DNA of 64,000 bases from Pelagibacteraceae bacterium. Its GTDB lineage: Bacteria > Pseudomonadota > Alphaproteobacteria > Pelagibacterales > Pelagibacteraceae. Positions 24,625-27,269 of the stretch are shown here, one piece after another. A program made the translations under genes and the position numbers. Numbering within the stretch: position 1 is the first letter of the stretch; every line of letters begins with the position of its first letter. The notes under the pieces were generated by a model. It saw only the letters and a list, made by a program, of their open reading frames with translations, was not told the origin of the DNA and ran no database searches. The stretch is from assembly GCA_018402735.1 (NCBI GenBank), contig JAGYIF010000001.1, forward strand, positions 372,001 through 436,000, read 5' to 3'.

Positions 24625-26292
<1,668 letters not shown>

Positions 26293-26342
26293 TACCATTC
26301 CTACATAGGAACATTTTAAAAACAAAAACTAAACAGATTATA

Positions 26343-26376
26343 AACCCTCAGAAAGAAATTTCTGGGGGTTTTTTTT
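26343..26376 (+). terminator. Rho-independent terminator of groESL
   Basis: Twelve-base arms AACCCTCAGAAA (26343-26354) and TTTCTGGGGGTT (26359-26370), one U-G wobble, loop GAAA, followed by a run of T. One of only two strong intrinsic terminators recognised in the window. Confidence 0.92.
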
Positions 26377-26391
26377 AAAATTTAATTTCTA

Positions 26392-27156
26392 CTAATTTAA
26401 AACTAATCCACCATCAACGATTAAGTTTTGACCAGTCACTGCTCTTGACCAAGGTGAGGCAAAAAACAAAATAGCATCTGAGATATCTTCAATGGTTGTT
26501 ACTTTCCTTAATGGAGTAATGCTTGAAATATAATCAAAAACGCTATCAGGTGTTGCTTTACTCGCATCTGTAATTTTTAATAATCCACCTGAAACCATAT
26601 TAACAGTAATGTTATATTGACCTAAATCTATTGCTGAAGTTCTGGTTAGAGACAACAAGCCACTTTTAGCAGCGATATAGTCATGATAAGGAACAACAGG
26701 ATTTTGAAATAAATTAGTTCCAATAGTTACTATTCTTCCAAAATGTTGCTCTTTCATAGTAGGCGTAAAGACATTGATTAAATTTAGAAATCCTTTTTGT
26801 GTAGTATGAATTTGATTTTCAAAATCATTCCATTCTATTTCATCTATTTTTTTTCTCTGGTCGCCGTTAAAAATATAATCATCAATCGCATTATGGATAA
26901 TTGTATTAACAATAATGTTTTGTTTTTTTAACTCATCTTTGATTTTAAGAACATCATCTTTATTTCTTACATCTCCTTGAACTAAAACTGCCCTTTCACC
27001 TAGTGAGATACATAGTTTTTTAGCACTTTCAAAAGATTTTCTATAATTTATGATGACTTTTGCTCCCTCACGATAAAAGGATTTTGCTATTTCAGAACCC
27101 AATCCTCTTCCGGCACCTGTAATTAAAATTGTTTGTTTGTTGATAGGTAAATTCAT
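26392..27156 (-). CDS. TPP-riboswitch-controlled short-chain dehydrogenase/reductase
   Basis: From ATG 27156 the product has 254 residues (an earlier ATG at 27174 lies inside the riboswitch and is rejected). Classical SDR features: TGAGRGLG cofactor loop at 13-20, Y160-IAA-K164, and a C-terminal VTGQNLIVDGGLVLN. Departures: the residue 13 before the Tyr is T147, not Ser, and the NNAG motif reads HNAID (88-92). The substrate is unknown. Position behind a thiamin pyrophosphate riboswitch implies a role in thiamin or thiamin-precursor metabolism. A FabG-like oxidoreductase under THI-box control has been noted in comparative genomics under the name oarX (from memory), which may be the same family. 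No other thiamin gene is nearby. It converges with groEL. Confidence 0.85.
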   Translation of the reverse strand: MNLPINKQTILITGAGRGLGSEIAKSFYREGAKVIINYRKSFESAKKLCISLGERAVLVQGDVRNKDDVLKIKDELKKQNIIVNTIIHNAIDDYIFNGDQRKKIDEIEWNDFENQIHTTQKGFLNLINVFTPTMKEQHFGRIVTIGTNLFQNPVVPYHDYIAAKSGLLSLTRTSAIDLGQYNITVNMVSGGLLKITDASKATPDSVFDYISSITPLRKVTTIEDISDAILFFASPWSRAVTGQNLIVDGGLVLN

Positions 27157-27158
27157 TT

Positions 27159-27233
27159 GTTTCTCCCTACGCAAGCATTATCTTGTTCAGGTTTTGAGGG
27201 TACTTCTCAGATATAAATATCGCCCCTGAAAAC
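27159..27233 (-). promoter_or_regulatory. TPP riboswitch (THI box)
   Basis: Read on the minus strand the segment shows CAGGGG, a small P3 hairpin GATAT/ATATC, the invariant CTGAGA (27205-27210), ACCC, ACCTGA, the P5 helix CAAG-ATAATG-CTTG, and GCGTAGGGA. P5 keeps pairing where the usual CTGG/CCAG is replaced on both sides, strong evidence of a functional fold. Closing stem P1 pairs GTTTT (27229-27233) with GAAAC (27159-27163). The likely ribosome binding site GGGAG (27163-27167) overlaps P1 and is six bases from the ATG, so ligand binding could block translation directly. Confidence 0.95.
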
Positions 27234-27239
27234 ATTAAA

Positions 27240-27269
27240 ACTATATCACGGTAAGCAATTTAAAGTAAA
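27240..27269 (-). promoter_or_regulatory. Putative sigma70 promoter for riboswitch-SDR transcript
   Basis: On the minus strand, TTTACT (27264-27269) and TATAGT (27240-27245) are 18 bases apart. Transcription would begin at about 27231-27234, just at the first base of riboswitch stem P1. The position makes the weak -35 more credible. Confidence 0.4.

Follow-up and report, generated by a model that had tools for sequence, protein, structure and literature searches.

The TPP riboswitch and the thi salvage operon belong to the textbook biology of thiamin (vitamin B1). A short-chain dehydrogenase (SDR) named oarX was reportedly placed in the thiamin regulon, under a THI element, by Rodionov and colleagues in 2002, and part of the link between SDRs and thiamin may already be known through oarX. 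The surface ocean is dominated by SAR11, whose growth is tied to traces of B1 precursors, and the vitamers that these bacteria can use matter for ocean ecology. In SAR11, thiV (SAR11_0811) is the likely HMP transporter and has a TPP riboswitch upstream (PMC11452348, PMC2704228); HMP limits SAR11 growth (PMC11452348). Here we describe a SAR11 genome (G000; 1.32 Mb, 97% complete) with a TPP riboswitch upstream of an SDR gene. The analysed window is a stretch of 64,000 nucleotides of this genome, to which positions refer unless another locus is named.

The riboswitch upstream of the SDR gene

A cmscan search against Rfam 15 matched positions 27147–27237 on the minus strand to the full model (1–105) of the TPP riboswitch family RF00059, with 71.3 bits (gathering score 54.3) and an E-value of 4.7e-12. 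Both CUGAGA and ACCUGA are found in this aptamer. The original prediction that all conserved TPP aptamer elements are present is borne out by this match, which is also the significant covariance-model result that it had named as a check. A whole-genome search returned this single TPP riboswitch in G000. A chance resemblance is ruled out by the score, by recurrence of the arrangement in operons and by a second SAR11 copy, and we regard the riboswitch as almost certainly real.

The aptamer core, P1 through P5, spans 27160–27233 on the minus strand. Evaluated on the sequence, the paired strands are 27231–27228/27163–27160 for P1, 27226–27223/27200–27197 for P2, 27221–27218/27213–27210 for P3, 27191–27188/27169–27166 for P4 and 27185–27182/27175–27172 for P5. 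P1 comprises four clean pairs and one mismatch, no more. P5 reads CAAG/CUUG here, compared with CCAG/CUGG in the SAR11 transporter switches, a two-sided change that retains pairing and agrees with the compensatory change that had been predicted.

The ribosome binding site AGGGAG (27163–27168, minus strand), placed by reading the sequence with the Rfam structure line, runs from the 3' strand of P4 across the P4/P1 junction to the first base pair of P1. It had been assigned to the closing stem P1, which is correct for that first pair but leaves out P4 and the junction. The SDR start codon follows three bases past P1, and the space between the aptamer and the start codon is too short to house a separate expression platform. 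The proposal that the aptamer is the whole switch agrees with this lack of space, but the layout is a usual one: in 29 of 30 SAR11 TPP loci, the aptamer ends in a conserved AGGRA that serves as the ribosome binding site, with the ATG 2–9 bases on. The aptamer-only layout is ordinary for SAR11 and not particular to the SDR gene; a unique expression platform for this switch is unsupported, since overlap with the ribosome binding site is usual in SAR11.

A promoter-like site lies at 27240–27269 on the minus strand, consisting of TTTACT, 18 nt and a TG-extended TATAGT. The interval first proposed for the riboswitch, 27159–27269, thus ends in the –35-like hexamer, and only 27160–27233 of it is aptamer core. 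The number of sites of the TTTACT/TATAGT type in the region is not above chance, and the position of TATAGT is conserved in the other SAR11 copy, in genome G039. The RNA start predicted from this site, around 27233, coincides with the first base of P1, which may leave hardly any 5' untranslated region beyond the aptamer.

Because the aptamer belongs to the TPP family and buries the ribosome binding site, we infer that TPP represses the SDR. Binding of TPP would close P4 and P1 and hide the ribosome binding site, and the SDR would be made only when TPP is scarce. Ligand-free energy folding was uninformative alone and did not demonstrate release of the ribosome binding site.

The SDR and its gene surroundings

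The SDR gene (26392–27156, minus strand, 254 aa) has its ATG at 27154–27156, and its stop codon ends at 26392. The gene is monocistronic: a 264-bp gap separates it from hisG, its upstream neighbour on the same strand, and groEL is convergent at 24628–26292, with a terminator-like hairpin at 26342–26371 between the two convergent genes. The description of a lone SDR as the only gene downstream of the riboswitch therefore holds. No thi gene was found among the open reading frames of 20–35 kb in the window, and thiE and thiD lie on another contig of G000, in line with the earlier remark that no thi gene is nearby.

The protein, an SDR of classical type, contains the glycine motif TGxxxGxG, and Tyr160 and Lys164 of the YxxxK motif are invariant in 103 aligned rows. 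The catalytic serine is replaced by Thr147, with threonine in 96 of the 103 rows. The asparagine of the tetrad is missing in the family, which has Thr, Ala or Ser at that position, and a PYHDY signature is nearly fixed in the family alignment. Arg39, after the second strand, fits NADP(H).

The SDR belongs by score to NCBIfam NF006393 (PRK08642.1; 356.4 bits, cut-off 292), a family that NCBI names 3-oxoacyl-ACP reductase, and its closest solved structures are FabG. Both points would suit an ordinary FabG-type 3-oxoacyl-ACP reductase that landed by chance behind a TPP riboswitch. However, the protein fails the FabG models TIGR01830 (129.9 against 297.75 bits) and PRK05653 (136.7 against 296 bits), carries threonine for the catalytic serine and lacks the tetrad asparagine. 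FabG identity was rejected on these grounds; although it passes NF006393, the SDR is not FabG by score or by catalytic residues. The repeated TPP operons across several phyla described below cannot be one accident, and we consider a stray FabG highly improbable.

Thiamin genes and loss of thiV in the host genome

Among relatives of G000 in the SAR11-like family, 122 of 147 carry one TPP riboswitch each, and in the loci that we read, the SAR11 switches lie upstream of thiV-type sodium symporters or an NMT1-type binding protein. The original prediction had pointed to thiC, thiE and transporters elsewhere in the genome as informative. ThiC was not found in eight SAR11 genomes (G000, G039 and six relatives), with 13 of 14 control genomes positive, and ThiE and ThiD were found in all eight. 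In G000, thiC is thus absent, thiD and thiE are kept, and thiV is reduced to a remnant.

This remnant, the last 84 codons with a stop, lies at L190:9001–9252 (G000 C1:490500–490751) in an otherwise syntenic locus, between a TauE-like gene and a zinc-ribbon gene. The same neighbours flank intact thiV in G040 and G012, and thiV is intact in all six of the relatives searched for ThiC. The position of the remnant implies that G000 lost thiV together with its accompanying riboswitch, and that the genome's one TPP riboswitch now controls the SDR. No thiV was found in G039, where two contigs break off right at the thiV site; this assembly gap may account for the absence. Separately, two SAR11 genomes of the same genus have one more gene between their TPP riboswitch and thiV, for an exported protein of outer-membrane-like type (L012:1550–2248 and L020:1550–2254).

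The cassette in SAR11 and Prochlorococcus

The SDR occurs in two of 397 SAR11-family genomes, G000 and G039, which belong to different genera and both carry the riboswitch. The two cassettes match with 85% identity over 844 bp, starting at the –10 element and including the SDR, and they occupy different sites. The G000 cassette lies between groEL and hisG, a variable site occupied in G040 by two unrelated small genes (L224:3842–4919); the site used in G039 is nearly empty in G022.

The nearest relatives of the SDR are 18 Prochlorococcus-type genes, 72–82% identical, and the SAR11 pair and the Prochlorococcus SDRs form one clade (SH-aLRT 100). A clade of the Prochlorococcus SDRs alone is not rejected (p-AU 0.56), so that transfer between Prochlorococcus and SAR11 may have gone either way. 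No TPP riboswitch precedes any of the 18 Prochlorococcus copies, whose gene surroundings vary and whose nearby Rfam matches are sRNAs, tRNAs and Cyano-1 only. Some of these copies have a short hairpin of the GAGCAGTTT type before the start codon (L101:3230–3289, L108:4955–5001 and L102:1050–1097), which matches no known Rfam family at the cut-off. No relatives of the SDR were found in viral contigs.

We propose that a self-contained TPP-riboswitch/SDR cassette replaced the TPP-riboswitch/thiV cassette that is usual in SAR11, with the SDR acting as an aldehyde reductase in salvage, a proposal that we rate as evenly balanced.

SDR genes and TPP riboswitches across phyla

A TPP aptamer model (R1), built from 14 aptamers, was run over 99 loci and four more. 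A TPP riboswitch is present at 40 of 80 GTDB SDR loci, or 40 of 62 without Prochlorococcus, shares that are biased upward because the motifs of the GTDB scan came from a partly thiamin-linked alignment. Two less biased draws gave five of 11 SDR matches with a TPP riboswitch (an even draw of phylum genomes) and four of the four examined among five matches (a class draw). From riboswitch density, the expected coincidence of the two is estimated at well under 1%, and the riboswitch label changes 10 times on the SDR tree, compared with 34 times when shuffled. Against the possibility, raised with the original prediction, that the SDR family is equally common without riboswitches, the tie to TPP is a repeated one, both outside Prochlorococcus in GTDB and in the phylum draw.

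The riboswitch-linked genes occur in several settings. In Rhizobiaceae, Rhodobacterales and a Gemmatimonas, the riboswitch precedes thiM-thiE-thiD-SDR, an order found in about 30 loci with thiM first and the SDR last. In Pseudochrobactrum, Rhodococcus, Arthrobacter, Nocardiopsis, Mesobacillus, Exiguobacterium, Halomonas and Pusillimonas, the riboswitch and SDR are followed by an NtaA/DmoA-type FMN monooxygenase (TIGR03860, 519 bits). In three such genomes, of different families, a separate TPP riboswitch precedes a thiV-like sodium symporter gene, which is divergent or nearby (L156:3754–7078, L095:5195–8732 and L179:4807–8795). A third setting comprises TPP-controlled operons of LuxE-like and LuxC-like genes ending in the SDR (L069:4194–10200, L099:5908–12117, L098:5866–9463 and L089:2146–5750), two of them in genomes that also have an ABC importer with an NMT1/THI5-like binding protein; these operons resemble a thiamin-regulon module that would turn carboxylates into alcohols. 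The SDR stands alone behind the riboswitch in SAR11, Lutimaribacter, Salinarimonas and Lujinxingia.

Prochlorococcus, Caulobacteraceae, Lysobacteraceae and some others have the SDR without a TPP riboswitch, and its role in these three groups may be different. Residue 88 is histidine in the SAR11 and Prochlorococcus SDRs and in all rows of the pooled thiM/thiE/thiD and lone-SDR group, and asparagine in the monooxygenase and LuxE-LuxC groups. Thiamin co-regulation of the SDR, as thiM-thiE-thiD-SDR or TPP-SDR, extends over Pseudomonadota, Actinomycetota, Bacillota and Gemmatimonadota.

The patchy spread of the SDR, its location on plasmids and its transfer between phyla give it an accessory look. 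Such a gene might detoxify or repair an antivitamin or damaged thiamin analogue, for example a bacimethrin-type pyrimidine, and be induced as TPP falls; antivitamins have been reported in waters (PMC12345177). Yet the SDR shares operons with salvage kinases, importers and a synthase rather than with efflux or resistance genes, and we judge this function decidedly unlikely.

Proposed function of the SDR

The SDR very probably has a role in vitamin B1 supply, and its assignment to a salvage step is strongly supported by the TPP riboswitches and operons in which its relatives occur. The original prediction had offered either salvage or oxidation of a precursor: TPP-controlled thi operons across phyla argue for the former, and the operon partners make it more likely that an aldehyde is reduced than that a precursor is oxidised.

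The activities of the partner families are established. In LuxE and LuxC, they are activation of an acid and its reduction to an aldehyde. Oxidative N-dealkylation by NtaA-type monooxygenases likewise yields an aldehyde. ThiM phosphorylates hydroxyethylthiazole, and ThiD phosphorylates HMP. Since LuxE/LuxC and the NtaA-type enzymes make an aldehyde and ThiM and ThiD need an alcohol, an aldehyde reductase suits all three sets of partners. By analogy with these operons, the SDR would be an NADPH-dependent aldehyde reductase that converts an oxidised thiamin fragment into the alcohol for a salvage kinase, although we see this direction, from aldehyde to alcohol, as having about the same chance of being right as wrong.

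SDRs are reversible, and the presence of pyridoxal 4-dehydrogenase, an SDR and B6 analogue, among the structural matches would suit the opposite direction, in which an imported alcohol is oxidised in a catabolic or precursor-oxidation step. There would be little point, however, in TPP repressing a pathway that breaks down precursors; LuxE and LuxC as partners indicate reduction, and Arg39 fits NADP(H). We give oxidation only a slim chance.

For SAR11, the likeliest reaction of a reducing SDR would be 4-amino-2-methylpyrimidine-5-carbaldehyde to HMP, followed by ThiD and ThiE. This is our best guess because the gap in G000 lies on the pyrimidine side, where thiC and an intact thiV are missing; HMP as the product is put forward tentatively. 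A thiazole-branch product would also fit a TPP-controlled SDR in a thiM operon. There, the SDR would reduce oxidised hydroxyethylthiazole (thiazole acetaldehyde, in the LuxCE operons after reduction of the acid) to HET for ThiM. That thiM is the first operon gene in the roughly 30 loci speaks for such a role, and LuxE-LuxC would then reduce thiazole or thiamin acetic acid. We nevertheless find a thiazole substrate unlikely, given the pyrimidine-side gap in G000 and the published limitation of SAR11 growth by HMP (PMC11452348).

Our literature search found no paper joining TPP riboswitches with an NF006393-type SDR, and no report of a thiV-to-SDR swap in SAR11, of the tie to Prochlorococcus or of the three-way operon logic leading to an aldehyde reductase. 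In its broadest form, our proposal is that a SAR11 lineage gave up a TPP-switched HMP transporter in exchange for a reductase under TPP control, of the type shared with Prochlorococcus, and lives on an aldehyde-level pyrimidine vitamer, and that the SDR defines a widespread, unrecognised salvage branch; we think this possible, but on the doubtful side. If true, SAR11 would use an aldehyde-level pyrimidine B1 vitamer outside every known marine salvage route. The branch would run from acids or alkylated pyrimidines to the aldehyde, through LuxE/LuxC or an NtaA-type monooxygenase, and on to HMP through the SDR. A lineage without thiV whose only TPP switch controls a reductase would suggest a benefit from some other precursor. 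The operon partners (LuxE-LuxC, the NtaA-type monooxygenase, the NMT1-type importer and thiM-thiE-thiD) provide a named enzyme family with testable substrates, and SDRs of this putative salvage branch are now labelled 3-oxoacyl-ACP reductase by NCBI.

Comparison with known systems

The reported oarX is likewise an SDR under a THI element. Salvage of base-degraded thiamin (ThiXYZ, YlmB, TenA) shares NMT1/THI5-type importers with some SDR operons, but it includes a TenA step, which was seen in none of the SDR operons; SAR11 is reported to be without TenA (PMC10470507). The TPP-controlled thiM-thiE-thiD operons of Rhizobiaceae and Rhodobacterales have the same type of control and the same SDR in last place, 54–59% identical. 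There, the SDR has partners in its operon, whereas in SAR11 it stands alone, with thiD and thiE elsewhere in the genome. Closest of all is the SAR11 TPP riboswitch of thiV, which resembles the SDR switch in aptamer type, in occurring once per genome and in having its ribosome binding site within the aptamer, adjoining the start codon. That switch controls a transporter, whereas the switch of G000 controls an SDR in a genome whose own thiV has been deleted.
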